Shown here: positions 4,729-55,806 of the stretch, piece after piece | Layout of the letters: every line of letters begins with the position of its first letter | Position numbering within the stretch: the first letter of the stretch is position 1 | Assembly: GCA_018292915.2 (NCBI GenBank) | Contig: JACVVK020000087.1 | Location: forward strand, 797,501 to 861,500 | DNA from: Batillaria attramentaria | Taxonomy: Eukaryota > Mollusca > Gastropoda > Batillariidae | Direction of reading: 5' to 3' | DNA: 64,000 bases | Notes under the pieces: generated by a model | Told to the model about the DNA's origin: nothing | Databases searched by the model: none | Seen by the model: the letters and a program-made list of their open reading frames with translations, nothing else | Position numbers and translations under genes: made by a program

Positions 4729-5061
4729 TCAGTGCGAACTGAACTTTTGCTTGGAAATGAAAGTCAGTCTTTCTTGATTTTTGGTTCCATAACCATTGTG
4801 TTCAAACAATGTAGGTACCGGGACAGAATTTGTCCGCTTGTACCCGACGAAATGGCGGCTGCACACGCGAGGCCACCGAGACGGTTCGGCGTTCTGCCTT
4901 CGAATCGCTTTTATCCACAAATTTCTTGAAACTTTTGAATAAAAGGGCTCAAACTGAACGATCTCACCATTAGGTAAGACCATCTCTGGGAATTTCTCCA
5001 GCTTATCTGATTTTCTCGAGCCATTTTGGCAGCCGATCGCAACGCACTGGTAGTGCGGCAT
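4729..5061 (-). CDS. THAP-type zinc-finger protein, 110 aa
   Basis: The ORF starts at ATG 5061; the longer open frame to 5133 begins with GTG and is less likely. It shows the C2CH THAP signature: Cys6 and Cys11, a conserved Trp in 'RNLWIKAIRR', Pro and 'VCSRHF' (Cys, then His three residues on), followed by 'VPVPTLF', which corresponds to the AVPTLF box closing THAP domains. THAP domains are zinc-coordinating DNA-binding modules shared by P-element-type transposases and host transcription factors. The protein ends about 28 residues after the domain, so it is a bare THAP module or a first exon. Its start lies 99 bp from the 19-bp motif at 5160–5178. The 55-residue spacing between the second Cys and third Cys is at the long end for the family. 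Confidence 0.75.
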   Translation of the reverse strand: MPHYQCVAIGCQNGSRKSDKLEKFPEMVLPNGEIVQFEPFYSKVSRNLWIKAIRRQNAEPSRWPRVCSRHFVGYKRTNSVPVPTLFEHNGYGTKNQERLTFISKQKFSSH

Positions 5062-5159
5062 CGTGTGTGACTCGAGTAGCCCACATGCCGAGTCTAACAA
5101 GCCTAGTCTCGGTCCAAAATCGCGCACGTTCACGCATGTTCACGCGCTATAACGAGAAT

Positions 5160-16918: not shown

Positions 16919-17515
16919 CTAGTACAGCACCTTTTCACGGCCAAATGTGTGCACACACTTATCCACAGTTTCAAGAACACGCGACGCAGCTCCATTTAAG
17001 AGCGCTGGGTAGTCTCTTTCTGTCAGTTCTCGTACGTGCAGATCAGCTAACTTGAACCCTGATGCCTCCATTCTCCGGACGACCTGTGTGGGAAACGAAA
17101 TAAAGTAAGTGGTCACACTTAGAAACATCACATTCATCCCAACCGCTTACGTACAGGGCTTTCATAATGTAACATCAATTTTGGCTGCCATGTGTACCGC
17201 TAGCTCAGTACAGGTAGTATACAGAGGCACGTAAATGCAGTCATGCCACTTGGAATGGCAGCCTGCATGCAGCACAGCCACTGTTGCGGAGATGATAAAC
17301 TTGTCAATTGATGCCAAACATTTGTACTGCACAGTGCACTATGAGACTGACATGCCAACAAACTAAAGTCAATGCAAAAAAAAAATCATCCAAGTGTTAA
17401 CATCATGCAGTGAACCACAATAGTGAGGACCAACAGGAAAAACATGTTCCATGTTCCCCAAACCTACACACTTTCTAAAATGACACACAAGCAAGGACAC
17501 ACACATGCGCGCGCG

Positions 17516-17564
<49 letters not shown>

Positions 17565-20500
17565 CATTATTCCCTACATAACAATTTTCCATTTAAAAAC
17601 AAAAAATACAAGGAGATATGAAACAAACTTGTGTTTTTTAAAAGAATACTTTAACTTAAGCCACACTCACCTCCTGTCCGAGAAAGCAGACCTTGCTGGG
17701 CATATTGCTACCACAACGGAAGCAGGAGAGCACCTTGTAGACAACGTTGGGGAACTGGCAATGGTTCAGGTACCTCACGTAGTCAGCGGCTGGCTCTTGA
17801 AAGCCTTGGTCTGCATCCACATGGATCAAATGGCCTAGGGGGAAAAAAAATTGTTACATGTAGATAAACAGGAACACACACACACTGTTACACTATGGGA
17901 AGCCAAACTTTCACAAGATTTCTCCATACTGACCTTTGAAGCCCCTGTGGAGGTCGCTGGGTTTGCTGATGTGTCCCAGCCACCATAGCAACACGTACTC
18001 CAGCTGCAGCTTCTGCGTGCGGTCAAAGGTCACGACCTCTGTCACCATTGAATCCAGATACTGAAGCTCCAATGGTGACCTTTTGATGACCTTGGGAGTG
18101 GGTGCGACAAAAAGGCCTGGAAAAAAGAAATCCATCTGTACACAAAATCTTCATGAAATACCTAATTACATGTAATCTCTACATGTTATCCCCAGCCAGA
18201 ACAATCTTGCTAAAGAAAAATTAACATTAAAAAATTGACTTTTATATACACATGTGTGTGTGTGTGGGTGGGGGGGGGGGGATCTTATATGTGTTTAGTC
18301 CTTGAGGTCTGTGACGTGTGTTTAGTGCCGCTGTTTAATAACAAATTGCCCAAATTGGGATAATAAATGAAACTGAATTGAAAAATTAAGGATCAATAAT
18401 CTCAAAATAGCCAAAAATCAGGTGATGCCAATTTCCATACTGTCTAGTCCATTCCAAGAAAGTTGTCTTTACTTTCGTAGAACTTTGCTCCAACTTTCAA
18501 ATTTTTTCACGGCTTTTTCTTTATGGCCTAGAAGAAAAAGAAAAGGAGGGAAAACGGACAGATATCCTCACCTCTGAGTGTGCCATCCGCGTGGGTCATC
18601 GAGCCGAATGCTGTATGCCAAGCCTCGTCGGCATTAAAGGTGCTCACCAGAGTGGACGCGATAACACCCTCTGTGCATGGTGGTGTATGGTACAGCTGCA
18701 AATGAAAACTCTGCCATGACAAAACAGTTCAACTAGTATGAAAGAAAGCGCTACGATGCAAATGCCAACATGACCTAAGACTGGCAAACTTACCGCCTAA
18801 TGCCCTACCAGTACCACCAAAACATGTTTCCTCTAGGTTCATTTTCCCCATCCATCAAAAAGTTTTGTTACTTAGGACAGCTAATGGTGAAACTAACATA
18901 TAGTATCAGCTGCACATACCGTGCCGTCAATAACCAATACACGGATACAATGATATGGTGAAAGGTAGGCGCCGTCCGTTTGTAGGCACAAGGTGGCGGC
19001 GGCCGTGACAGCAGGTCAGTATGAGCCGGCTAAGCCGGTCCAGAGGCAAAGGGTTAACATCGTTCAAGCTCGCTTGCAGAGCAGTGTGGGGGCATGTCTT
19101 GCCGGTAGGCAAGCCAGGTGGGAAACTGGCGATTGGGGGTTGGGTCAGGTGGCTTGGGAGTCATGTGCCAGGCTAACTCACTGGGGCAAAAGAGTCAATA
19201 GAGGGTTATCCCTCTTGTTGCCAAGTACGCGAACGCTTCTGACTGAAGTTGTGGGGGTATAGGGGGAATCTCCTATTGTATCATGTCATCTGGTATATCC
19301 GTAGGAGAAACCAACATATTGTATCAGCTGCACGTAAGAAGCTGAATGAATGAAAACACTCTCCATGTACAGACTCAGCAACTTCTATGCAGCTCTGCAT
19401 CCTCAAAATCCAGTCATAAACAAGCAAAGCCCATGGCTTCCCCATGGCTCAATCCTAACACCAACCATTACATCTTTAACCCCCTTCTAGCCTGCTTGCT
19501 GGAGGTCGTTTGTGAATCACGGTGCTTTATCAAAGCCGATCGAACCTGTGTTGATTGCTTCCCACTAGGCACCATTTTGTCAACACTTGAGACGCGCACT
19601 ACGATTGGCTGCATGATCTAGAAACTCAACTGAGATTGGCCACAACCTCCAGTTCAAAGGTTACTGTCCACAAAGCACTAAAAATAGTCGATGTAACAAG
19701 CTTCGGTCAAATTTGTCTCCTCCGTATTTTTCGCGGCCAAACCGTATTTCCGTATTTAATTGAGTCAAGCGGAAAATCATACGCCCATTCCGTACTAGTT
19801 GGCCCCTCTGAACTCACCCCCAGAAGACGATCCAGGTGGTAGACTAAAGCGAACGCAACATGGTTTTGCTTCTCTCCCTCCTCCACCACGAACTTGGCGC
19901 GCGAAATCTTGTGTCCAGCTGACGAGGTGTTGTAGTTGATGATCATGGAGCCTCCGTGTGACCCCTGACCTGACAGAGGTCGAACGCTGCTGAAGCCCGT
20001 GATGCTCTGCACACGCACTGCACGCTTCCAACTCTTTTCTGTCATGCCTGGGGAGGAGAAGGGAAAGTACAGCAGGCAGAAGGGAAAGTACAGCGGGCAG
20101 AAGGGAAAGTACAGCGGGCAGAAGGGAAAGTACAGCGGGCAGAAGGGAAAGTACAGCAGGCAGAAGGGAAAGTACAGCGGGCAGAAGGGAAAGTACAGCG
20201 GGCAGAAGGGAAAGTACAGCAGGCAGAAGGGAAAGTACAGCGGGCAGAAGGGAAAGTACAGCGGGCAGAAGGGAAAGTACAGCGGGCAGAAGGGAAAGTA
20301 CAGCAGGCAGAAGGGAAAGTACAGCGGGCAGAAGGGAAAGTACAGCGGGCAGAAGGGAAAGTACAGCAGGCAGAAGGGAAAGTACAGCGGGCAGAAGGGA
20401 AAGTACAGCAGGCAGAAGGGAAAGTACAGCAGGCAGAAGGGAAAGTACAGCGGGCAGAAGGGAAAGTACAGTGGCAGTGATGTTGCCAGGATATTTTTTC

Positions 20501-23500
20501 TTCGGCGATTTAGCCGAAACAGCCAGGAAAGTTTCGGCTTTTTACAGAAAGTTTCGGCTCTCTCTGCCGAAGCAGTTTTACAAGTTTTTCGACTAGATTC
20601 CCTACTGTTACGTGCTCCCACCACCTCCATGAATTAAAGAAGTTCTGTAAAGTTGCGTTTTCTTGGAAATCAGTCCAGCCAGCACAGGAATCTCGCAGAA
20701 ACGGACATAATCGAGCCGATTCACTCGTGAAAACTTCGGCTCGGCCAGCCGACATGACAGACAGATTATCAGCTTCTTTTTAAAAAATCCGCTTTTAGCC
20801 GAGATCCGACCCCAAACGACAGTGCAGTGGGTAGGAAAGATTTTAACACTATAACGGTAAACCAACAGATGAAATCTGATACCAAGAACAGGGCTTCATA
20901 ATTCATACGTGAGAACTACAGTGCCAACGTATGAAGTCAGGACATTTCTCCTGAATATTACCCACTGTGGTGCAGAAATAATACTACTAATAGGTTCATA
21001 TTATATCTGCCTTGATAAGAAAGTGATCAGACACATTGAAAATTGGTCTATGACTAAGGGCAAGGGTCAAGAGACAACATACTCTACACTTGTAAATACA
21101 CGTTCAGTTAACTGAAACGAAGCTGGAAACACTAAGATCAGTTTTAGCATACAACAGCCAGTATGAACAAGCAGGCTGTACAATTTGTTTTCCTTTTATA
21201 TACGGTAATATTTCTTTGATGTCACACTAAGATCAGGCGACAGGGACAATGTATACATATCATGTGCTGTCTATGTGCGTGTGTGCTATGTGTGTGTATA
21301 TGTAAGTGCATACATGCTCATGACTTCACATTTCTTCGAGCAAGTTTTGTGAATCCACATGGTAAATCTTTGTATATATTTGTTAAATTTTGAGTACACT
21401 CATCTATAACTATACACTGTATGCATACATACACATGTTGAAAAAGTGAAGAAGAGAATTTTTAAAAAACAACCCCCAAAAAACCCAAAAACCATATGAA
21501 AGTTTTTGTCCTTGTGAAAACCATCCCCCCCCCCCCCCCCCAAATATTTCAGTGACTTCAACAGAAAACTACTGCAGTTCCGGTTGCCTAAATTCCTACC
21601 TTTCATGCCCATATGAGCCATGACCCGCCTCTCCCTGCTGTGGAGCGCATCCTCTAAGTTGACCTGGTGACGGCTGACACACTGCTGCATCTCCTTCATC
21701 TGATCAGCTTCACTCATTTTCTTGTCGCTCTTTCCCTCGGCACCTTTGTGCGTGTCCTTCGCAACCTCTAGGCCCTTGTTCCTGATAGGTTCCTCCTGTT
21801 CTATGGAGGAGCCCTCTTTCTTCAGAAACAGTGTCACTCCCAAGTTGACATGAGGGATGCCAGAGTTCTTTCCCTTGAAAACTACTGTCATCCGACCTGA
21901 AAAATGGATTTGATGACAGTTTCGAAGACTGTTGCGAAGACTTCGACGACATAAGCCCAGCAACATATGTGGTGTCTTACACTACAATCACATGGACCTC
22001 GTGACCATCTCAACTGACAAAACCGAGCTCCTGCCCAATGTGCGGTAAAAAGCAGATCAGTGATACGGATATTTTTCCCTTCATTTTTTTTACTGATCAA
22101 CTCAAGTAGAGATCTGCTGAAAAGTTTGCTCAGCAATGCTCAATAAATGGCAAGGATGGGTTTAAAAATTTGCCAAATAACCAAATTATGCACTGCACAA
22201 CAAACATAATAGCAGTTTTGAAAGCCATTTTCAGTGAATGCATTTAACCAAAAGATGACAAAAGTTTCTGTAGCAACTTTAACGTAAGTGCCAATATTCA
22301 GAAAGAAAAAATAGGGAGAAAACAAACAAAAAAACACCGGCCCCCCGTAGTGTAGTGGTTAGCACTTCAGATGATGGACCGGGAGACCCGGGTTCGAGTC
22401 CCAGCCGAGGCAAGTGGGATTTTTCTACCTAGGTCGGCTCCTACCCACAGCAGGTGTGCTATGGGCCCAATGGGGAGGCTGTTGCCACACAGCCGAGATT
22501 CACCCACTTCGCGGGTGCGACTTTGGGGGTGCTTCCCTTGGTATGACACGTCTTATGATGTGGATGATTACACGGCCGGCACTGCAGGTGCCGTAGTTCC
22601 CAGGCCTGGTTACTGCCGGGATATTTATGACAGGAAGCGAGGAATGCGGCCCTGTCCCGCAGTCCCAAACCACACGGACCTCCATAGCATCATCTCACCA
22701 TCATCCTCATCTCCATCAGCATGCATAATAAAAATTGCCCCAGCTTCCGAGCCCTCCGTGGATTCCACCCATTACCTGGGAGGAACACCACTGAAACTGG
22801 CAAAGGAGTTGGGGCAGCAAAAAAAAAAAAAAAAAAAAAGCATTATACACTGCACAGCAAACATCGTCAACACATCTAAAACTCACTTTCAGTCTCAGGG
22901 TTTGCCGAGAAGACGGCAAAGGCCCTGCACTCCGAGTCATCGGAGCAGTGATCCATGGCAGCACTGAGGGAACTGAAGGTCATCACGCAGCCCCACAGCA
23001 CGCGCGAGTCTCCACATGTGTAGTCGTACAGCCCGGGAAAGTTGGACGAGTCCATGCGCTTGTACTTGTGGGGTTGAGGGTTTAGCTCGCCTCTCTAGTG
23101 AAAACAAAAACACCATTTTACGTGTCGAACATTACAAGAATGAAAACAATGAGGACAGCAGTAAGAAAGAATTTATTTTAACAATTAAGCCTGGAACTAC
23201 AACAAAATCATCAGCATGAAAATCTTCAGACATCACTAAAGTACCGCCATCACTCACATCTTTCACATCCTCCTCCTGCTCCAAGGGATGGTCACCTCGC
23301 ACCTTGTTGCGCCTGGTTTCGACAACGTTATCACGTAGGTTATCCTCCTCCTCATCTTCATCTTCATCCTCATCTTCCTCCTCGTGCACATTGCCCACAT
23401 CAAGATGCTGGTCTCGCTTGTTTTTGAGAGCGTTGTACCCAGGTAAGTCTCTAATGCCATCATCCTCACGGATCTCTGTTGAAAAAACATGAACGTGACT

Positions 23501-26500
23501 TACTGATAAAATAAAATAGGGTTTGCAGCTGAAAGAAGGCATGGAGTTACATGCTGAGAGTTATATACATGTACTCCAAGACAACTTGTGTACCTGAAAG
23601 CTACTGCATTGTGAGGTGTTGCAAAGTGACAGACTTTTTAAACTCAGCTTTGTCCGTAATGAAAGTACTCATGTCTGCATGTCAGTGATATGGGTGACCA
23701 GGGTTGTACATTTAAGTCGGTCCCAGGACACTGACCTATAAAAATTTCAAATGTCCTATTTTTCCCACCTCAAGCGGACATTTGTCCTATTAAAATTTTT
23801 ATTGCCCTCAAGTGGCCAGGACACTGTGTCCTATCACTTTGCTGTTTCCAGGACACTTTGTCCTATAGAAGCTGTGGAAAATGTGCAACCCTGTGGGTCC
23901 GCATGTTGTGGGACTTTTCCTCTGGTGAAGGTCTTTTTTCATCTTCTTCTATATGCTGGCATGTGGTTTACAGATCCAAACAACTCCATTCACAGAAAGG
24001 CTGAACGAAAAAACATGTTCTTATAATACGTCTATGGTATACCAATATAAATAACTGAAACAAAATCACATCAGCACTTCTTTCGGTAATTGCTGAGGTT
24101 TCAGACAGCAGCATGCACCAGCCGTATTTCACATTACACACCAATACAGCGGAAACATACCATATTTGTCTGCAAGTTCTTCAAGGAAAATGATCAAATC
24201 ATTGGGAGACACGTCCAAACGGCGGATGCGGTCAAGCATGTCATCCACTGCTTTCCTCTCCTCAGGTGGTGACTGCTGCAGCAGAGGAACCAAAACTAAG
24301 CGCCCAAACACCCACAGGTTGGTTCGCTGGTTCAACCCCCTACACCGTCCATCTTGGCACTCCACCCCTGACATGTGTGAAAGAAACAAAACATGGTCAG
24401 TTATGAGATGATACGAGACAACACTGGTTATGAGATGATACGAACTCACGGCAAGAGCATTAGAAGTCCAACGCTCTACCATTAGGCCACCCTGGCTCCC
24501 CTTACACATGGTTGAGAACCATAACGAAAGACAAGTATTTGAAAGACAAGACAACAGTGCAAATACAGAACTTCGATTTCTTTACAGGGCACAAAACAAA
24601 TGCACAATCGTTCATCTTCATGACTGATGAAGTTCTGATGAATAACTGGTAGGTGCAACACAACCGTGCATAATACAGGTTATGGTGTTGGTAATTCCTC
24701 AGTTCCTGTACTGTACGTAATTAACTCTTGCAAGCCCATGCAAAAATCATGTATTTACTTGAAATCTTCAGATCACTATGCGCCACCTCAAGCCACTATT
24801 ATGCAATCTGCAGCGGTCTTGGGCCTAGCGGGAAGGCCCATGCTTTGTGTAACTGGCTCGTACTGGTGCGCAGTGGATGTTTCTTTTTGACTGGTCTTAT
24901 CATATGGTGGGCAGGGGGGTGGTCGGGCTTTGGCTCTTAAGAGTTAAGGGAAATGCACAATACCATTTGCTTACAGCCAAAGTACACATCTGAAAGTGTC
25001 AGCGCGCCAAGCAAAATGGAGATCTCAGTGCGTGCAAGTACAGTTGAGGTAGTAAAGTTGGCCCCCTAACGCCATTTGTACCTCATGTATTAAATTACAG
25101 GGCCCCTAGTAAAAGTCGAGGTTAACTCTTTGACATCGTGAGCTTGGCCAGTGACCTACTTCCCTGCTGACGCGCATGCAGCTGCTGGCTATTTAGGGCA
25201 ACGCGAATCGGTTCGCGGCTCGGTGCCTACGGCTGTTGAGAGTGACGCGAGCCGGATCGCGTCCCGATGCGTAAAGGTTAATTTAACCCACGGCTATGGG
25301 CCTAACCCAGACTAGGACAAAAGAAACCCAAAAGCAAAAGCAAAATTAAATAAAAAAAGGAAGCGAAGAAAGGAAGATAAAAACTTTCTGTAACGGCAGG
25401 CACCTTGCTGGATCGGGCCTGCTTCTTGATTTAAAACAAAAAACAACAGAAAATTTAACCCTAGAGCTATAGTTTAGTTCAAGGTTAGACTCTACCCCGG
25501 GGTTAAAAGCCCTAACCTCGACTTTTCCATACGAGCTCATAAGATCTACTGAGCATCATGATCACACCATTACTAAGAGGTAACCCTATCAACAGGGATG
25601 GATTTACTCTAATTTACTAGAAACCAATGAGACATTGTCTCCTTGACCAGTCATTTTTATGAGACATTTTCATTTTCTATGAGACAATCAAGTTCACCCG
25701 CATCACTCTGTCACATGTCTGTGCCGAGAGCCTGTTCCAAAGTGCAGTGACGTTCAGGTTCTGAACGGAAAAGGACCTCTCGATCGCAGAACTGAGAAAA
25801 CTGATAACGCGCCAATATTTTTTGCACCTCTTTCGAGCGAGAGTTCCTGGCAGCGCGCGCAGCGAGCGGGATAAGTAAGCCTCATCACTAATATTAGATT
25901 AGTGTAACAGTCTCTATGACTGACACGGACAGCGCATCTCTGCTTCGCGTTGTCAAGTGCGCCTGTGAGGTCATGTTCGTGCGACATATGACGCATTTTG
26001 CGAAATTTCTCTGCGACATTTTATCAAAATATGAGACATAGTCACACGACGCGCGAGAAAATCGATCCCTGTATCGGTAAACTTACAACTCCCTAGAGGA
26101 CCTGTTAGGGCTGACCATACTGACTGAGTGCATACATACCAACTTCTGAACCTTGCATCAAGCAGTCGGAACTCCTCCTGCACTGCTTGTCTTCAAGCAC
26201 AACATCGTCCATGTCTGTCAGTTTTAGCTGTTTGCGGTTCACCAAGACAAAGTCCTTCATTTGCAGACGAGGCAGTCCTAAACTTCCCAAAGGGGACGTC
26301 TGTAGAAACTCCAGAAGGCTGGCCACATCAAGGGCAACCTGCAGAACACGTAGCACAATGTTCTACGTTACTCGGCGCTGTTAGCCCTGCTAGAGTTTCC
26401 GTTTGATATAGCGGAGGAGCAGTGGAGTGGAGCGTGTGGCTAGCAGGACAACAGTGGCAACAGGAATATACAATATGAAGGCTTAGTAGCAACAACATCA

Positions 26501-27784
26501 GCAGCAGCAATGATTCTTCCCTTCGCTTCATTTTCGCAAAATCTTTAGTTCACTGCTGATGATCTCCATGGACTGACACTTAACCAGTGTTGTCTCTGTA
26601 TTTGTGATTCTGTAATTTGTGCCCTGAATAGGCTACTGAGCCGTAACTCTGGGAGTGCACTTGTTTCATGTAAGTGCTGCTCTTTTTCTGACAAATTGCC
26701 AGTCCCTTCCATTCTCATGATTTTTCTCCACCTGTAGAAAAGGGAAAAAAGCAACCCTCCAAAAAACAAAAACAAAAAAAAAAAAACCGAACAAAGAAAG
26801 TACAAAAATCTACAAAAACATGAGCTGACAGTCTCAATTTTTGAAAAACTATGCAAATCAGACACATACTGGTTATGAAATGACAGAGATTTTTTATCTG
26901 AGCTATGAAATTTCTGTATGCGTAGTGATTTAAAAAAAAATAAAAATAAATAAAAAATCATGTAAGAGGTAACATACCCTCACTCTTCGTGCCCAGGACA
27001 ATGAAGACACGACGTCTGAAGTGAGCGGAGTCCCAGCCTCCATCACCAGCATCATCCCTTTCTTACGCATGTCCAGTGAGATGTGATCGCCGCGGAGACA
27101 GTACCCAAGTATGTTGATGAGACTAGGGTGCTGGAAGAGGGTGAGAAAGAAAACCTCCCGCATGAGGTGGTAATTACCCATGGGGTTGCAGAACTCGGCG
27201 TTGTAGATCTGCTTCATGCAGGCGATCTTCGTCTGCACGTCGTTTGCCTGGCTCTTCACCACCATCACCTTGCGGTCCCAGCGTTCGCGGTGGTAGCTGT
27301 AAGAGTCAAGCTCCGGCTCTTCCAGGCGCTCCACGAACTTCTTAGCCGAGGATCCCATGCTGCCCCCGATCTGAAGGTTGTCGATTTCTCCACACGTCAT
27401 GGGACTAAGAAGGTCAAGTTCCAGCATGCGGTCCTTCAGGATTATGGCGACTTCGTCAGGTTCCCGCGCACTCTTCCAGTCTGGCGGATACAACATGGCC
27501 AGCACCTCTTCCACCTGTTGTTTGGTTAGACCGTTCCTAGAACCGCCACCCAGCAGATCAAAGTTTCTATTGCTGCCTCTCATAACGTTGAAACCATCCC
27601 TGGGACGAAAGCGGAATGACCTCCTTTTCTCCAAGGAAGGGAGGGAACTGCTGGGCGAGGGTAGGCTGTCCTGACCACTAAGCGTCCGATATGTCATGAC
27701 CAACCCCAGAAACACAACAGAGAAGACCAGCAAGGCCAGGCTCTTGCGCGTCCGAAGACGAAGCAAACGGCGCCGACAAGACAT
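16919..27784 (-). CDS. VLK/PKDCC-like plus FAM198-like two-domain secretory kinase
   Basis: I joined eleven exons: 27784–26978, 26338–26140, 24367–24161, 23475–23258, 23094–22887, 21896–21600, 20047–19818, 18695–18572, 18116–17934, 17834–17671, 17083–16919. All junctions are GT–AG and keep phase, giving 933 residues. Residues 15–31 form a type II signal anchor, so the protein should face the Golgi lumen. Residues about 130–590 match PKDCC (VLK, a secreted tyrosine kinase): a GGSMG glycine loop at 140–144, Lys177, Glu210, 'HPSLINILGYC', 'SPLGS', a DMD metal motif at 311–313, then the Cys-containing C-terminal region ('SECRAFAVF…MTVVFKG'). Arg293 replaces the expected catalytic Asp. After a charged linker, residues about 645–933 resemble FAM198/FAM20/FJX1 kinases ('YHLDRLLG', 'HLIHVDADQGF'). 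The acceptor at 27835 implies an upstream non-coding exon. The alternative is two separate genes, but no stop or new start separates the parts. Confidence 0.85.
17517..17562. repeat. (CA)n microsatellite in kinase intron
   Basis: A CA tract lies in the intron between the last two coding exons and is preceded by CGCGCG. Confidence 0.95.
20060..20472. repeat. 21-bp minisatellite, 20 copies
   Basis: The unit is GGGAAAGTACAGCGGGCAGA plus A, with GCGG/GCAG variants alternating. It lies in the intron just upstream of kinase exon 7 (minus strand). On the minus strand it is pyrimidine-rich and supplies the polypyrimidine tract of that exon's acceptor. Being 7 codons long, it stays open in frame with the exon (LYFPFC-type heptads). 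Confidence 0.95.
22336..22842 (+). mobile_element. Long tRNA-derived SINE (second family), copy 1
   Basis: The tRNA-like head has box A/B sequence (GTAGTGTAGTGGTTAGCAC … GGTTCGAGTCCC). A body of about 420 bp follows, ending in a poly-A run. It lies in the intron between kinase exons 5 and 6, opposite in strand to the gene. It matches 51996–52499 over its full length. Confidence 0.85.
23703..23905. mobile_element. hAT-like MITE, copy 1
   Basis: The ends are CAGGGTTGTACATTT and AAAATGTGCAACCCTG, which are inverted repeats. The interior is full of GGACA/TGTCC pairs. The flanks TGGGTGAC and TGGGTCCG are a partly decayed 8-bp duplication, as expected for hAT elements. It is located in a kinase intron. 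Confidence 0.75.
24420..24507 (-). mobile_element. SINE head fragment
   Basis: It contains the reverse complement of a tRNA-like head (GGGGAGCCAGGGTGGCCTAATGG…) without the body. A 17-bp direct repeat, GTTATGAGATGATACGA, lies beside it. Confidence 0.6.
24721..24947. mobile_element. TTAA-flanked MITE (piggyBac-like)
   Basis: The ends are TTAACTCTTGCAAGCCCA and the inverted TTAACTCTTAAGAGCC, each including TTAA. There is no ORF. The TTAA target preference suggests piggyBac-family mobilisation. Confidence 0.55.
25103..25537. mobile_element. GGGCCC-ended MITE with nested insertion
   Basis: It is the same family as 43953–44250, with left end GGGCCCCTAGTAAAAGTCGAGG and inverted right end CCTCGACTTTTCCATACGAGC. 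The left part is interrupted by a 152-bp TTAA-flanked insertion (25126–25277). Confidence 0.75.
25126..25277. mobile_element. Nested TTAA MITE
   Basis: It is inserted at TTAA (25122–25125 and 25278–25281). The empty site is preserved in the sister element at about 43975 (GTCGAGGTTAATTTTACCC). Its ends, CTCTTTGACATCG and the inverted CCTTTACGCATCG, are imperfect terminal repeats. Confidence 0.75.
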
Positions 27785-39724: not shown

Positions 39725-42700
39725 CTTTTCACTTTCTCCAGGCAACTTCCTTCCTTTCACTGGCTCTGGCGTTTCCCCCCTCTTAGATTCTGCCCCCCCC
39801 CCCTCCCCCCAACATCTTCCGGCGCTCCTGCGCTGGCCTTTTTTTCCGTGCCCCGCCTTTGATATCATCCTGTCTTGGTTGAAAAAAAAAAGAAAAAAAA
39901 AAGGCGTTAAGCCGTAACACATCAACCAAACAAACCAACCACCCCGGCCCCGGCCCCGGCCCCGGCCCCCGCCCCCGCCCCACCCTGGGAGCCGGGATAG
40001 CCAAACGGTAGAGCGTTGGACTCTCAATGCTTGGGTCGTGACTCGTGAGTTCGAATACCGGCTGGGGCCACATATTTGTACTGGCCTTTTTCTCGTTGCC
40101 CCCTCTTTGATATCACCCATATGTGGTGGAAAATGACGTAAAACTCCCAAACACCCACCCCCCCCCACCCCCCCGCCCCCCCCCCAACCCAACTGTGACG
40201 TGAATTTCTTGGGTATAAGTTTGTTTTGTTGTTTAAATACACACAAAAAAACCAACAGCACGCTCCTGAACTTGTCTGTACAAGTATTCATTCAACAGGA
40301 ATCCGCCCCGACCCATAACCGACAGGCGGAAAAGGCGCGCAGGGAATACCAAACGTCAAGCACCACCCCTGACGTCCTCTCCTCTCCGACCACGTGTTCT
40401 AGCTTCTCGTCAGAAAACAGCGACCGCAGATCAAGAGTCGGCTGCTCCGCCTCCGGGAGTGTCGTTTACAAGACCCCGGAGGTTCGTCTCAACGATGTCG
40501 AAGTCCGAGTTTCGCTCTCTGAAACAGTCCCTGGCCGCGTCATTTCGAGACGGTTCGGGTGAAGAGACCCCACCCATATCACACTCGCGAGAGACGCAGA
40601 GACCCAGACGCATCTGGAGGCGAGGTGCCTCTGAGAGGAAAGCCACATCCTCCTCCTCCTCCTCCCCTCGCTTCCAGAGCCAAAAGTTTCACAGGGTGTG
40701 GAAAGTCCCGCGAGCGCTTGGCGTCCCGACAAAAGTGCAAAGCCAAGAAAGTGCCGCGAGAACGTCTAGAACGAGGAGAAGAAGGTCGATCCCGGACATT
40801 CCCGTTCCTTTCTGGATTCCCATGCGGCTCGCAAAAGTCAACGAGCAGAACCTGGCGCATCTGCAGAATCGCATCAAACAGGCCAGAATCAGGAAATCTC
40901 CGAAATCCCGGCGTGAGGCACAGGCGTCGGCCAGATTTGGCACAAACTCAAGGTCTTCGCAGCTGCAGTCTTCTATGTCGCCACGCAGTTGGTCCTTTCC
41001 CGGGAGAATCCGGCGTGAGGCCGTGTCCGGGACCACACGTACTGCTCGAGTCTCGCTGGAAGCACGCGGTCCTGCCAGAAGATGGCGGAGAGATTTCGAC
41101 GACGACGACGACGACGACGACGTAGCTGATGATGATGCTGCTGCGTTCCAGAATGAGTACGATCAAAAAGAAATCGCTGATGCCGACACTAAGAAATTCC
41201 GCCACGGTGATGATGACGATGTTGATGACGATGATGGCGGGGGCGGTTCTCAGAAAGTGAATGAAGCTTTAGTTGATATGTCTCTCGAAGGAGACAGGAG
41301 AAAAAGAAACAAACACTCCTCGGTGTCGCCTCTTTTGGGCTCGCCAACACGGCACATGAGACAGATTGAAGAAACGATTAACATAAAAGAAACTGCCGCT
41401 GCTGGAGATGACGATGATGATGATGATGACGACGATGACGACGACGATGATGACGACGACGACGACGATGATGATGATGACAGTAGTGATGGTCTCGAAC
41501 TAAAGCGTGATGTTTGGGACAAGCTTGAAGCAAGTGGTGGGCAGGATGACGTTAAGGCCAGAGTCAGACGCAGGCGGAAGGATGCTGGGGACTCTCAGGA
41601 TGTAGAAGCTTCAGCTGATTTGTCCCTCCAGGCAAACAGGAGAAAAAGAAGAAAAGATCTCACATTGTCTCCTCTTTTGGTCTCACCAACGCGGCACAAG
41701 AGACAGACCAATGAAGAGATCGGTACAACAAAAACGGCTGGGGCTGGAGACGATGATGATGACGACGACGATAATAACGACGACGACGATGATGATGATG
41801 ACAGTGGTGATGACCTAGAAATAGAGGTGACTCAAAAGCGGGATGTTTGGGACACGCTTGAAGCAAGTGGAGACCAGGAAGACATTCAGGCCAAAGTCAG
41901 GAGCAGGCGGGAGGATGATCCTACGAGTGGGGACTTTCAGGACGTAGACGATATCCGTATGACTGGTACCATTTTCGATGAAGATGACGACGAATATGAC
42001 GACATGCTGCTGCACGGTCGCCGTGGCGATCTCCAAAACGGCGGTGATGATGATGACACCGGCAACTCTGAAGACAACTACAAAACCCTTTTCGGATCTA
42101 AAGCTGACGCCGACGTCATACGACCAAAGCGGGAATCCCAGGGCAGCGCTTCAGAGGGGGCTGACGAGACGAAGGGCGCTTCAGAAGAGTCTGGAGATAC
42201 GAGCAGCGCCTCTAATGATGCTGGAGATACGAGCAGCGCCTCTGAAGATGCTGGAGATACGAGCAGCGCCTCTAAAGATGTTGGAGGTGAGGGAAGCGAT
42301 GCTAGTGGAGAAGATTCTGAACTAAGCGTCAAGGAGGGTGGCTCCAGCACAGACCTAGGTCTAAACGGCATCCACGCGAAACTAGGCAGCTCGGACGCGG
42401 ATAATTCTGCTGATAGTAATGACAGTGACAGCAGTCGTGACTCTGGAAATGAGCTGGATATAAATGTTAAAGTAAAGAAAGGTGGCGAACCAACCAGCAG
42501 CTCTGAGATTGTTGGTGATAGTGAAAGCGGTGAGCTCCCGAACGCTGGGAGGAACGGACAAGACCGGAACGTCAACGAGGAAGAGTCTGGATCCGCGAGC
42601 ATCCCAGACACCTCAGCGCAAACCGAATCCATAAAATGGGCCTTTGCTCCAGGCCGCAGGAAATTGAGACAAAGCTCAGAAGACCTTGACGACGACACCA

Positions 42701-43477
42701 GTTTTGCTTTAGCTGGAGTCGTGGGCGAGGATGGTGATGACGACGACGACCTCGACATCAGTGACAAGGATCTTGACACAGGAGACGAGAACAAAAAGGG
42801 TAGTGGTGACGATGACAGCGATGAAGATGTCGTTACTAGCGACGCTGACAATGGGCGGAGCAGAAGATCGTCCGGGGAGTTTTTGCGTGTGTCGATGAGC
42901 GGACGGAATATCAGAAGACGGGCCTCTCGAAAGTCCGGTTCAGCAGATGACAAACAGCGAAGAAGGGAGTCGGACACTATCAGTTTGAAACAGGCCATGG
43001 ATCGTCTTCTGAAAGAAGTTGAGAAGACCAACGCTCGCCTGCTAGACGAAAAAGGCGGTGCCGGTGGCGGTGGCGGTGGAGGCGAAGAAGGCGGTGACCG
43101 ACGAAGAAGGAGCCTATACTCGTCTGTGGGCAGGACATCTGACGAATCTGTGGGTCCTGGATCGGGCCGCCTGGCCAGAACCTTTGTCCGGTACCGGGAC
43201 ATCGCGGACGAGATAGAGGACAGCAGCGGCAGCCTGGGATCTCTCGACAGCGACGAGAAGAAGACGCTGGGTCACTTCGAGCTCCTGGTGGACGCCTTGT
43301 TTGACGCCCAGCCTAGCATGGTTGACCAGGGCGATGGGGGTGGTGGAGGCGGCAAAAAGAATAACCTGGTCCGCCTCAAGAGGCTGGTGGACGACATATC
43401 GGATGCACTGCCCGACTCCGAGACCGAAGAACGGACGATCGAGGATAGTGACGAAGACAACGAGGAGCAAGGGAAGT

Positions 43478-43564
<87 letters not shown>

Positions 43565-46500
43565 GTGTGTGGTTGGTGTGTGTGTTTGTGGTGTGTTGCG
43601 TGCGTGTGCGTGCGTGCGTGTGATAACTTTGAAATTCACTGGTCTGCCTGTTTATTTAGTAGATTGGATAGTTTCTTCGTAGCCACTAGAGTCTTTGTTC
43701 GTACACACAAAGAAAATTATCTAGTCAGATTTGAATAGTCGGAATACTGTGGTTTGTCGAGTGATCGTATGACGTCAGGAAATCTCACGTTCTTGAAAGT
43801 TCGACAGAGTGCAGGCGTGCAGAGGTTCAGACATTTGGTAGCCAAAACAAGAAATCAAAGGTGTAACCTCAAGATACCATTCACCCATGTTTACCTGTGC
43901 GATCCTCGATTATACAGTCAGCGTTATGGTTGTCAAAATGAGGCTGAAATCAGGGCCCGTATGTAAAAGTCGAGGTTAATTTTACCCACGGCTACGGGCC
44001 TAACCCAGACTAGGACAAAAGAAACCCAAAAGCAAACTTAAATATAAGAAGGAAGCGAAGAAAGGAAGAAAAAAATCCTTTATAACGTCTCTGGCACCTT
44101 CCTGGAATGGGCCCGCTTCCTGATTAAAAACAAAAACAAACAAACAAACAAACAAAAACCCAGAAAATTTAACCCTAGAGCTAGTTTAGTTCGAGGTTAG
44201 ACTCTAACCCGGGACTAAAAGCCCTAGCCTCGACTATTACATACGGGCCCAGGTGTTAACATCGAATCAGTTATTCACACTTTATTTTCTTATTTGTTTG
44301 TAGTCTGAACGACATCGCTTTCGATCTGGCGGCGGAGAGCATTCCCACGCGCGACACGGATGAAACCGAGGATGAGAGCCTTATCGTGCCCGACATCAAT
44401 GTGATGAAGGAGCTCCGCAAAAAGAGGTCTGTGCAAGCCGGACAAGGGGAAGACAAGAAACAGCCCGACGTTCGAGAGGGTGTGAAAGTAAAAGATGTCA
44501 CAAACAGCCTGAACGAGTCCGGCTTGGGAGCACCAGGCCGACTTCCAGCAGAAAATCCTACTTCTGCGAGTGGAATTGCTCCCGGAACACCCGCAGAAGA
44601 AACTGAGGTCAATGCCTCTGAAAGCCCGAGTCAGCCACATGTCATGAATAATGCCAGTTCTGGAGACCAGAAGGCTACGGGTTTTTCCAAAGGCCCTCTG
44701 GAGACTCACACCCCCGTATCTGGGTCTCCAGGACCAAGACAGGATCCGCCTGAAAATGACACTGCAGCCTCTCGCTCGCGAGAAAACTTGACTGGTCTTT
44801 CGAAAGTTCGCCCCAAGCAGAAACCACGCAGAAGAAACGCTGTCGATCTGTCCGTTATTCGGGAGCAACTACGGCTTCTCAAGAGGAACATGCACGCTGC
44901 GTTTGAGAGGCGCCGCAGAGCGCAGCGTCTTCTGGAAAGGGAGGCTTTGTTGGCAGGAAAAAGTCGAGCACGGCGAATTCATCCAGGTTTGAGAAATCGG
45001 GAAGAGGTCGAACATCTTTTACGTGCCGATGATGGACACAACCTGGAGGCAAGCATGTCGGTTGCAGATCAAGGGAGACACAGTGAGGGAGAAATGCATC
45101 ACGTGAAGCAGAGAAACAGGCTTCCCCGCAAAGGCTGGACGTCGGCAACTGGTCACGCAGCGAGAGAGAAACAAAAGCCGAACGAGGTGAAGAAAGGGAG
45201 GCGGCTGCCGAAAAATGAACCAGAGAGACTGCGAAACACAGACAAGAACCCGAAGAAAGACACACAGCGAGTGAATGTTGTCGAGGAGAAAGAGAAACAA
45301 AAGACGAACAGGATTGTGAGTGAAAAACGAGAAGCGTTCAACACCGAAAACAAACAGAAAGCAAAGAAATCTCTACGACTGATAAATGCCAGTACACAGA
45401 ACAATATTGAGAAGAGATATTTTTATGCTAAACAACAACCTCAAAACATAGAAACAAGAGAGAAAGAGACGGAAGGGCCAATGTTACCGACAGAAAAGTC
45501 AGTTTACGTCAAGAATGACGTCAAACTGTCCACAGTTTCCCCGGATAAGGAGAACCAACGCAAAATCAACAGTCTGGAGAAACAAATCAAATATGCCACA
45601 AAGAAAAGCACAGACAGCACAGAGACAAAACAACGAAACACTATGCCAGCTGCACATCTCGGAAAGGACACACCAGACCCACGTCCCGGAAACATTGGCG
45701 AGATACTCAAAGGGCGTTTCAAGCCCACGGCAAATGAGACCAAAAACAGTTTTGCGGGTGGACTTAGAAACGAAGGTAAAGCATCCAAAACGCATTTCAA
45801 AGCAGCGACTAAACAATCGGGAAAATACTTACCGGGTGAGGATCTCAATAACAACTACATGCCCAGGAAGCCTTTCAAGGGAACTGCGGTCAAAATACCC
45901 ACTGCGCAACCCCACCAACAACAAAACAAAAAATACCACGAGAAGATGAAACACCACAAGACAAAAATGCAAGCAGCACGAAAAGCGAAGAAAATTGCGT
46001 ATCTCAGAAGCAAGGAAACTTCGTTCAAAACTCCTTTTAAAGAAATGATAAAGGGTGGCTCCATAGAGGAGAAAGAAAAACAGCCAGCAAAACAACGGCT
46101 GAAGGAGAAATTACAAAAGAAACTTCTGGCGTCACAAAAAGCGGAAGACGGTAAGATGACCACGAAGACACGTATCAGAGATCCGCCAACTGCCCGAAGT
46201 GGACGAGAAAGGGCGGAGAGCCAAATACGCGAAGCAGACGACACAATGAACGCCACAAACAAGGCCAAAGAACGTGTAAGGTCAAGACCCAAAGCTTACT
46301 CCACCAAGTACACAGAAGAACAGACGACCAAAGCTAAACGGAAGATGAACGAGCACCCTTCTGACGTAAGACTCCAATACAAAGAGGAAACTTCTGACAA
46401 GCAAATGAAAGCAACTTCTAACAATCTCCATATCGCGCGCAGTCATCAAGACCAAAACGTGAATTCCCTGCAGGACATTGTAAAAATGCAGCGCCGCGTG

Positions 46501-49500
46501 AGAAGAGCGGAGGACCTCATGGAAGACCTCCTCAAACACAGGCGCTCACGAGAAACGAGAGTGAAAACAAAAGTCGTAGAAGATGCAGACGAGGAGGATC
46601 TGAAAATTATCACCCAAAGAGGCAAGGCGCCGCCGGTGAACCCCAAAAATGACATCGAGGGCGACGTGATCGAGAACATCGAACTGCCTAACCTGTTCGG
46701 CGACGAAGAGGAAGAGGAAATCATCAACGAAGTCGACGTTATTCAAGAAGAGATCGACAATGACGACGACGAAGACGACGACGACGATGACGACAACAAC
46801 AGAAGGCGGCGAGCTCCCGATGATCTCATTGACGTCAACGCTGATGATAACGATGACGACCACGATGATTTGAGGCGAAAGCGACGGCGCACTGCTAGGG
46901 AAGGCGTTTATGACAGTGATCCAGTGAGCATTGTCACGCAGGGCGAACTGAACGAAGAAACCCTGGACACCATGTTCGAATACGACACTGATGACGACGA
47001 CCAGCCACGGAGGATAAAGCGCAGCCTCGGAGCTGAAGAGGACGACGATATGAGAACGTACATCATCGGTAGTGTGGAAATGAGTGACCCACCCGACGCA
47101 AACTCAGGTCAGTCCTAGGACGCCAGTCCCAAGCTGGGCGTATTGGTGGGATTGAGGGGGGGGGGGGTGGTGGTGATGGGGGATGGAGAGGTTGGGGGGG
47201 GGGGAGGTGGTGGGGGTGTAGTGATAGTGAGAGTTATATTCAGAGGGAGTGAGCACGTGACGAGAGAAAAATCTGCGCAAAGGAACTGCGCCGTTGATTC
47301 TATTGACTAACATCGTTTACCTCAACCAGTTCTTTCCCCAAAACCCACCCCCAATGCTCGAACCGTGAGTTCGAATCCCGGCTTGGGCCAAATATTTGTG
47401 CTGGCCTTTTTCTCGTTGCCCCGTCTTTGATATCACCCTGACTTGGTGGAAAAGGACGTTAAACTCACAAACACCCACCCACCCTCTCCCCAAAACCCAT
47501 TCTCCATGTGGCAGCTAGCGGGTTGGGAGAGCAGCAGCAGCTTACGAGAGACGGAGAATCCTCCAGTCAAGTGTTGTAACTTCACGATAAGGAAACGTTC
47601 TCCAAATGCTCTGTCTATCAGGTCACAGAATACAACTCTTTGCCGCTCTCTGGCTCCTACAAATGTGAAGCAGCACAAGTCCTTGAAAACGATTTTGAAA
47701 ACCAAAACACACAATGGTTCCCAGAAGCAACACATGTCCGCAAGCTGCATGCCAAAAATTAGTTGTAACTTCAGGATAAGGGAACGTTCTCCAAACGCTC
47801 TATCGGGTCACAGAATACAACTCTTTGCCGCTCTCTGGCTCCTACAAATGTGAAGCAGCACAAGTCCTTGAAAACGATTTTGAAAACCAAAACACACAAT
47901 GGTTCCCAGAAGCAACACATGTCCGCAAGCTGCATGCCAAAAATTAGTTGTAACTTCAGGATAAGGGAACGTTCTCCAAACGCTCTATCGGGTCACAGAA
48001 TACAACTCTTTGCCGCTCTCTGGCTCCTACAAATGTGAAGCAGCACAAGTCCTTGAAAACGATTTTGAAAACCAAAACACACAATGGTTCCCAGAAGCAA
48101 CACATGTCCGCAAGCTGCATGCCAAAAATTAGTTGTAACTTCAGGATAAGGGAACGTTCTCCAAACGCTCTATCGGGTCACAGAATACAACTCTTTGCCG
48201 CTCTCTGGCTCCTACAAATGTGAAGCAGCACAAGTCCTTGAAAACGATTTTGAAAACCAAAACACACAATGGTTCCCAGAAGCAACACATGTCCGCAAGC
48301 TGCATGCCAAAAATTAGTTGTAACTTCAGGATAAGGGGAACGTTCTCCAAACGCTCTATCGGGTCACAGAATACAACTCTTTGCCGCTCTCTGGCTCCTA
48401 CAAATGTGAAGCAGCACAAGTCCTTGGAAACGATTTTGAAAACCAAAACACACAATGGTTCCCAGAAGCAACACATGTCCGCAAGCTGCATGCCAAAAAT
48501 TAGTTGTAACTTCAGGATAAGGGAACGTTCTCCAAACGCTCTATCGGGTCACAGAATACAACTCTTTGCCGCTCTCTGGCTCCTACAAATGTGAAGCAGC
48601 ACAAGTCCTTGGAAACGATTTTGAAAACCAAAACACACAATGGTTCCCAGAAGCAAACACATGTCCGCAAGCTGCATGCCAAAAATTAGTTGTAACTTCA
48701 GGATAAGGGAACGTTCTCCAAACGCTCTATCGGGTCACAGAATACAACTCTTTGCCGCTCTCTGGCTCTACAAATGTGAAGCAGCACAAGTCCTTGGAAA
48801 CGATTTTGAAAACCAAAACACACAATGGTTCCCAGAAGCAACACATGTCCGCAAGCTGCATGCCAAAAATTAGTTGTAACTTCAGGATAAGGGAACGTTC
48901 TCCAAACGCTCTATCGGGTCACAGAATACAACTCTTTGCCGCTCTCTGGCTCCTACAAATGTGAAGCAGCACAAGTTCTTGAAAACGATTTTGAAAACCA
49001 AAACACAATAGTTCCCAGAAGCAACACATGTCCGCAAGCTGCATGCCAAAAATTAGTTGTAACTTCAGGATAAGGGAACGTTCTCCAAACGCTCTATCAG
49101 GTCACAGAATACAACTCTTTGCCGCTCTCTGGCTCCTACAAATGTGAAGCAGCACAAGTCCTTGGAAACGATTTTGAAAACCAAAACACACAATGGTTCC
49201 CAGAAGCAACACATGTCCGCAAGCTGCATGCCAAAAATTAGTTGTAACTTCAGGATAAGGGAACGTTCTCCAAACGCTCTATCAGGTCACAGAATACAAC
49301 TCTTTGCCGCTCTCTGGCTCCTACAAATGTGAAGCAGCACAAGTCCTTGAAAACGATTTTGAAAACCAAAACACACAATGGTTCCCAGAAGCAACACATG
49401 TCCGCAAGCTGCATGCCAAAAATTAGTTGTAACTTCAGGATAAGGGAACGTTCTCCAAACGCTCTATCAGGTCACAGAATACAACTCTTTGCCGCTCTCT

Positions 49501-54723: not shown

Positions 54724-55032
54724 ATGCGCGCATGCTAGAGAATGTTTTTGAGCACACAGTGTCAGTGTGATATCTGATTAAGAGAGACAGCTATAATACT
54801 GAAGCAGGGCCAGCGGCTTGTGATAATTGTCGTCCATGGTGTACAAACATCAGGAACATCTGTCTGTTCAACAGAAAAGAAAAAAAAAAAGAAACAAAAC
54901 AAGGCCTGCGTGTAAACCCCCCCCCCCTCCCCCCCTTCACTGAATTGACCAAAGAAATGTTTGACGTGTTTCGACTTGTACATGAAGTCGTATTTTCGCC
55001 TCCAGAACTGCAAGAAGGTGACGAATGCCAAG

Positions 55033-55775
55033 ATGGCGTCGCTGGACGCCAGACAGATGATAACTGGGTCTGCACCCCGGATGTGGGTCACCACGCTCAT
55101 GGTCTTCCTCGTCCTGGCGCACGCGCACGAAGCTGTCAGCAGACGACTGAACGGCGTGCGGCAAGGCGTTTCCAGAGAGAGGCTCGTTCCTCGGCACCTG
55201 CACGGAATTGATCGGCACATAAATATAGCTCCCAAAGAAGACAAAACGCCCGCCCCTAAGCGAAAAGATAAGAGTGGGCTGTGGCGCATCCCCCTTCGCA
55301 CCAGCCGGGACACGGCAGACGACAGGCAAGACTGGAGAGGGAAAAGGCACAGCGCGACCTCGCCCTGGAACGGCGTTTCGTCCGTCTCGTCACAGGAAAG
55401 CAACAGAGTGAAACGTAGCAAAGCCGCCCGCAAAAAGTCTGAAGCAGTGACAGTCGCCAAGAGGAAATGGGCAGAAGGTGCGAACGGCCAGAAAGCTGAC
55501 ACGAAGTCAGCTGAGAGACTCCCCACCCGCCTTCACGCAGCCGGTTCGTTGCGCGTGACGAATGCACTTGGTCAGGAGGACGAGGAGAGGTCTCGAAGAG
55601 CGCTCGTGTCACGGCGGGAGGCATCCGCCTTGGCTGCACGTGTTGCAAAGACTGGTCCAACACGGTCACTGGCAAATGACCGCGCAAAACGTCAGTCCCT
55701 GTCCGCCAAAAGACGGCAGAGACAGGCCGACGACGATGATGATGATGATGACGATGATGATGACGACGATGATGA

Positions 55776-55806
<31 letters not shown>

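Follow-up and report, generated by a model that had tools for sequence, protein, structure and literature searches.

A gene on the minus strand of a 64,000-nucleotide stretch of DNA from the gastropod Batillaria attramentaria (contig JACVVK020000087.1, positions 797,501 to 861,500 of the forward strand; the whole stretch is referred to below as the window) encodes a tandem of two secretory kinase folds in a single reading frame. A VLK/FAM69-like domain is followed by a predicted FAM20-like domain, homologues with the same order of halves exist in other gastropods and in a bivalve, and the catalytic-base positions are missing from both halves in every member examined. The explanation considered reasonably probable is that this membrane-anchored tandem is a double pseudokinase serving as a luminal scaffold or allosteric partner.

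Gene structure and reading frame

An earlier note, made from the sequence alone, had proposed eleven exons with GT-AG borders and a phase kept from end to end. Splicing the minus strand at the implied borders reproduced this in full, with 11 exons joining into one frame of 933 residues plus TAG, from the ATG at 27784 to the stop at 16919, and with all 10 introns of the GT...AG type (phases 0,1,1,0,1,1,0,1,1,0). The gene spans 10.9 kb with introns, and all of its coordinates given here refer to features on the minus strand. Exon 1 (26978..27784; residues 1-269) contains the start codon, the signal anchor, N-terminal helices, and the N-lobe and hinge of the first domain. Exon 2 (26140..26338; residues 270-335) carries the catalytic-loop region GLPRLQMKDFVLVN, in which R293 occupies the HRD Asp position and D298 the Asn position, together with the DFG-like motif TDMDD (D311). 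The C-lobe of this domain, with CxxGxCxGLNxxxNL, is encoded by exon 3 (24161..24367; residues 336-404), a poorly conserved acidic linker of poly E/D by exon 4 (23258..23475; residues 405-477), and the Cys-rich tail by exon 5 (22887..23094; residues 478-546). The passage between the halves lies within exon 6 (21600..21896; residues 547-645), where the end of the Cys-rich tail (MTVVFKGKNSG...LFLKKE), the charged linker (573-612) and the start of a conserved helix preceding the second domain follow one another without a stop, just as this shared exon had been described. The FAM20-like domain begins with its N-lobe in exon 7 (19818..20047; residues 646-722), which includes QNHVAFALVYHLDRLLG, and continues through exon 8 (18572..18695; residues 723-763), exon 9 (17934..18116; residues 764-824), with LQLEYVLLWWLGHISKPSDLHRG in place of the FAM20 GNxDRHHYE helix-loop, and exon 10 (17671..17834; residues 825-879), with HLIHVDADQGF and HCQFP...CxxC. 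Exon 11 (16919..17083; residues 880-933 and TAG) encodes a C-terminal helix ending in CVHTFGREKVLY.

The type II signal-anchor segment (27689..27742, about residues 15-32) reads SLALLVFSVVFLGLVMTY and is preceded by RRRLLRLRTRK. The same pattern, a basic N-terminus followed by a single hydrophobic run within the first 60 residues, is found in 10 of the 14 aligned rows, namely the window protein and nine homologues (P0003-P0011), in agreement with the anchor proposed earlier. The run is missing in P0001, P0002, P0012 and P0013, whose public sequences begin later or differently. Judged from this pattern, the window protein is presumably a type II membrane protein of the secretory pathway.

Intron 6, which separates the two halves, is 1,552 bases long and harbours a minisatellite (20057..20471, on the gene strand) with a 21-bp unit, 19.8 copies and 97% matches. 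The repeat passes directly into the exon-7 acceptor (polypyrimidine tract and AG), which gives the impression of a splice-acceptor tract multiplied in tandem.

Homologues, age and conservation of the fusion

A protein search with the full model (7,999 candidates scored, E <= 1e-3) identified at least 11 homologues, and 11/11 carry both halves in the same order, which bears out the one-frame tandem of the 933-residue model. Named sources include Babylonia areolata (two different loci, P0001 and P0003), Patella caerulea, P. vulgata, Lottia gigantea, Physella acuta, Aplysia californica and Biomphalaria glabrata, together with one bivalve, the pearl oyster Pinctada imbricata; in these species the proteins are labelled as uncharacterised, hypothetical or FAM69-domain. 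The two remaining homologues consist of uninterrupted reading frames, one of 841 codons on a contig no longer than 3,529 bases and the other of 911 codons on a contig no longer than 4,888 bases. Since the Batillaria gene extends over 10.9 kb, these frames are most likely assembled transcripts. P0001 shows 57% identity over 90% of the model, and the model aligns along its full length with full-length homologues, the linkers aligning least well; such an alignment exceeds what chance would produce.

Residue and conservation counts were based on 12 rows for the first half and 14 for the second, P0012 and P0013 lacking the first half. Over the 12 rows, mean pairwise identity reaches 42% in the first kinase fold, 51% in the Cys-rich tail (486-572), 48% in the helix before the second fold and 45% in the second fold itself (651-933), compared with 16% in both linkers (15.5% for the linker at 405-485). 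Trees were built separately for residues 87-404 and 613-933 from 12 of the 14 rows, the partial P0012 and P0013 being dropped, and 8 of 9 internal splits are common to both, the two unshared splits having support values of 64 and 78. This concordance fits a single fusion followed by joint descent, with duplication among caenogastropods; the fusion probably arose once, before the sampled gastropod and bivalve lineages split, and was then retained. Both trees group the window protein with P0001 (support 68 and 53), and given the two Babylonia loci, Batillaria may have a second copy of the fusion.

A protein search with the C-terminal half (2,481 candidates) added two pieces only, P0012 and P0013, the latter on a 1.3-kb contig. 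P0012 carries the Cys-rich tail as well as the C-terminal half and is therefore part of a fusion. Because length and E-value limits applied, this search does not bear on whether free-standing relatives are absent.

The public Batillaria gene model BaRGS_025285 (P0014, 480 aa) corresponds to the same gene, with 100% identity in the best local alignment and 84% of the first-half query covered. Its first residue is an internal Met that corresponds to position 68 of the window protein, and its terminal PETESEF is what translation beyond the exon-5 donor would give, at a point where the Cys-rich tail is still unfinished. As a result, neither the signal anchor nor any of the second half is part of the deposited annotation, and the Cys-rich tail is cut short. 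At the exon-1 junction, P0014 is two residues shorter, which a donor placed 6 bases farther upstream would explain, whereas the donor adopted here yields the same residue count as in homologues (WARRVRVALDV; P0001 WARRVKLALDV) and fits them better than the public model.

Family placement of the two halves

The earlier note had described the first half as PKDCC-like. Its kinase fold belongs to the VLK/FAM69 superfamily, as indicated by a match to the Pfam FAM69 kinase domain PIP49_C (residues 212-378, E 1.1e-8, 35.4 bits against a cut-off of 25.2), which also matches 12 of the 14 members at E <= 10 (P0012 and P0013 being without this half), and by sequence matches to POMK. A placement in PKDCC proper would rely on the Cys-rich tail, which we take to resemble the C-terminal tail of vertebrate PKDCC, because no free-standing PKDCC was among the search matches. 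The profile search concerned, in which the 8,000 candidates with the most words in common with the query were scored, returned 10 matches: five known fusions, P0014 and four fragments of 288-327 aa. From this limited candidate set, nothing is concluded about free-standing PKDCC. When the full-length model was compared by Foldseek, only ordinary protein kinases appeared in the best 50 of 1,998 matches, because the first half fills the list.

PKDCC has the catalytic Asp of the HRD-equivalent motif. Like PKDCC/VLK and the FAM69 (DIPK) proteins, the fusion is a type II secretory protein with a PIP49_C kinase fold and a DxD-type metal-binding motif; it differs from them in having R, K, Q or N in place of the HRD catalytic Asp in 12/12 rows, a long acidic linker before the Cys-rich tail, and approximately 360 additional residues with a second kinase fold. 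By comparison, the Xenopus Pkdcc proteins are reported to have 449 and 489 residues (PMC4536202). POMK differs from the fusion in having its catalytic Asp, and its catalytic loop is reported to be longer (PMC5142810).

For the second half, which had been proposed to be FAM198/FJX1-like, no match to Pfam FAM20 (Fam20C, PF06702) or FAM198 was obtained in the 14 members (hmmscan, E <= 10, with filters that drop most matches above about 0.1), a negative result that makes up half of the refutation named in the earlier note. A profile built from this half nevertheless finds FAM20 proteins in the PDB (FAM20B at E 0.0028, FAM20A at 0.036-0.038 and FAM20C at 1.1), the best match being a hydra Fam20 named glycosaminoglycan xylosylkinase (E 0.0028), and a FAM20-type kinase fold is predicted for this half in two homologues (P0001 and P0013). 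Two PDB rows for SipA (E 0.42 and 0.47) align only to the C-terminal helices and were taken as chance. FAM198 (GASK1) and FJX1/four-jointed are placed in the same small family as FAM20, and the available text of PMC7948968 ascribes no activity to FAM198. With no Pfam FAM198 match, and with no FAM198 or FJX1 structure among the structure matches listed for the second half, any assignment to a subfamily is tentative; the earlier proposal of two secretory-type kinase folds in tandem is supported. A search of the Batillaria genome with Pfam FAM198 (PF15051) gave no match and is uninformative, as none of 14 controls matched.

Batillaria also has two separate FAM20 loci (PF06702), at 1448310-1451031 of contig C26 and 775037-781601 of contig C25. 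These read GNLDRHHYE...HLDHGRG and GNADRHHYE...MLDNGK, with the motif intact, and are probably FAM20C-like and FAM20B-like. FAM20B and FAM20C, with GNxDRHHYE, are reported to be active enzymes (PMC5865150); the second half of the fusion is predicted to share their fold and lacks this motif.

Catalytic residues

In the first half, the HRD and Asn positions were set by two profile alignments that agree, one to each of the solved kinases 5tos and 5xd6. The HRD Asp position is K in 6, R in 2, Q in 2 and N in 2 of the 12 rows, and Asp in 0/12, whereas Asp is present in 12/12 at both the Asn position (D298) and the DFG Asp (D311). The VAIK Lys (Lys177) is K in 7, R in 2, I in 2 and T in 1, and the alphaC Glu is E in 9 and Q in 3 (n=12); three limpet sequences have lost both residues, with T or I for the Lys and Q for the Glu. 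A loose [HYF][RC]D pattern for an HRD-type motif was matched in one row, P0007 (FRDMDC), at a site beyond the DFG-like motif and outside the catalytic loop, and was discarded.

Glu213 of the active worm Fam20 is reported to correspond to Gln258 in the pseudokinase FAM20A (PMC5413348). The equivalent position in the second half was set by profile alignment to 5wrr, whose chain position 170 is a Gln (this would be residue 258 with numbering from 89); it is Q in 8/14 and E in 0/14 members. At the presumed alphaC Glu position F, Q, Y or H is found (E in 0/14), GNxDRH occurs in 0/14, and the DFG-like Asp831 is D in 4/14, while Asp833, His708 and His826 are invariant (14/14). The earlier suggestion of one scaffold half and one active half is unsupported, because the catalytic-base positions are missing from both halves throughout the 12 and 14 rows examined.

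Proposed role and alternative explanations

With catalytic residues lost in both domains, a double pseudokinase lacking activity is the most likely state of the protein. The type II protein would lie in the lumen of the secretory pathway, its VLK/FAM69-like domain and Cys-rich tail leading through the charged linker into the FAM20-like domain, and both kinase folds would be kept as folds rather than as enzymes. As a luminal scaffold or allosteric partner, it would hold and regulate another secretory kinase or the substrates of that kinase, FAM20C being a candidate partner. FAM20A is reported to activate FAM20C by heterodimerisation in vertebrates (PMC5865150, PMC7948968), and since FAM20A, a FAM20 pseudokinase, exerts this effect by pairing, a scaffold or allosteric role is likely by analogy. 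The second half differs from FAM20A in being tethered to another kinase fold, and also in lacking GNxDRH and, mostly, the DFG-like Asp. In the available text of PMC7948968, FAM20A is reported only in vertebrates. A more speculative idea, to which a low probability is assigned, is that molluscs, lacking FAM20A, made a FAM20A-like activator of their own, in which a dead FAM20 domain joined to a dead VLK-type kinase would dock on the active FAM20C of the same Golgi, link it to VLK-type substrates or cargo, and tune the phosphorylation of secreted acidic proteins such as those of the shell.

Several observations weigh against the double-pseudokinase interpretation or the placement on which it builds. 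A 30-residue stretch holds most of the FAM20B score, other collinear stretches not being significant alone; hhalign found little similarity between the C-half profile and two Batillaria FAM20 pieces (probability 1.8, P 0.027); and the Pfam FAM20 and FAM198 models were silent for all 14 members under the hmmscan settings given above. The predicted structures are those of the homologues P0001 and P0013 rather than of the window protein, with the relative placement of the two domains predicted at low confidence (pTM 0.43), and residues were equated by sequence alignment rather than by superposing active sites. Most doubt attaches to the first half, where two acidic metal-binding positions, D298 and D311, persist in 12/12 rows and, together with Lys177 in 7/12, fit nucleotide or metal binding. 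POMK, labelled a pseudokinase, is reported to be active through a migrated active site (PMC5142810), and missing motifs therefore do not prove inactivity.

The main alternative, tentative and on balance unlikely, builds on these residues. In a kinase regulated in cis, the first half would be an active, unusual VLK-type enzyme with a shifted catalytic base, perhaps D298, and the FAM20-like half a built-in pseudokinase activator, equivalent to the FAM20A-FAM20C pair in one chain. The retained Asp residues and Lys177, the alphaC Glu in 9/12, the active-site migration involving a DLD motif reported for POMK in the same branch (PMC5142810) and the activation of FAM20C through heterodimerisation (PMC5865150, PMC7948968) are all consistent with such an arrangement. 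However, no row has Asp at the catalytic-base position, and the limpet sequences without Lys and alphaC Glu indicate that catalysis is not kept across the family.

It is also conceivable, though quite improbable, that the second half or both halves catalyse a non-standard chemistry through a rebuilt active site, as other pseudokinase folds are reported to AMPylate or glutamylate proteins (titles cited in PMC7948968). The strong constraint on the second fold, the invariance of D833, H826 and H708, and the HCQFP...CxxC cluster would suit this explanation, but the invariant residues may be structural (disulfides or core), and no feature found points to a specific chemistry. Finally, the merging of two adjacent genes by a wrong gene model, which the end of the public model after exon 5 and the minisatellite-bearing intron between the halves might suggest, is scarcely credible in view of the same order in all 11 long homologues listed (two of which are uninterrupted frames on contigs no longer than 4.9 kb), the linker exon, the concordant half-trees, and the way P0014 ends, by running into intron 5 with its Cys-rich tail unfinished.

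Neighbouring features in the window

Three large Asp-rich open stretches on the plus strand start approximately 12 kb from the double kinase gene. They lie at 40270-43620 (1117 codons stop to stop), 44260-47115 (952 codons stop to stop) and 54949-61434 (2162 codons stop to stop), and their products are dibasic and repetitive with long poly-D runs; the third also has a stretch resembling a signal peptide, as well as KNGMLDANGSPKTSVKAETM-type repeats. All three resemble secreted acidic matrix proteins or precursors. On the minus strand, an open stretch at 4732-5139 with MPHYQCVAIGCQNGSRKSDK... resembles a THAP-type zinc finger.

Significance

Secretory-pathway kinases are described as few, with most of their activities still to be worked out (PMC5865150, PMC7948968), and the best-studied control among them is the FAM20A-FAM20C pseudokinase pair. 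In the literature searched on PKDCC, FAM69, FAM20/FAM198 and molluscan pseudokinases (titles and the starts of abstracts), no published account of such a fusion was found. The component families are already known; descriptions of their tandem, of how old it is and of the loss of both active sites did not turn up there. The fusion would come as a surprise to specialists and is testable with ordinary biochemistry. It is filed under uncharacterised, hypothetical or FAM69-domain names, and the public Batillaria model contains no more than half of it. FAM20C of the pearl oyster is reported to participate in shell formation (PMC5824888). Two different secretory kinase folds that have been joined and kept in gastropods and a bivalve, with both active sites eroded, represent a natural experiment on the non-catalytic roles of these folds, and the fusion makes the question of whether a FAM20-type pseudokinase regulates FAM20C outside vertebrates directly testable.
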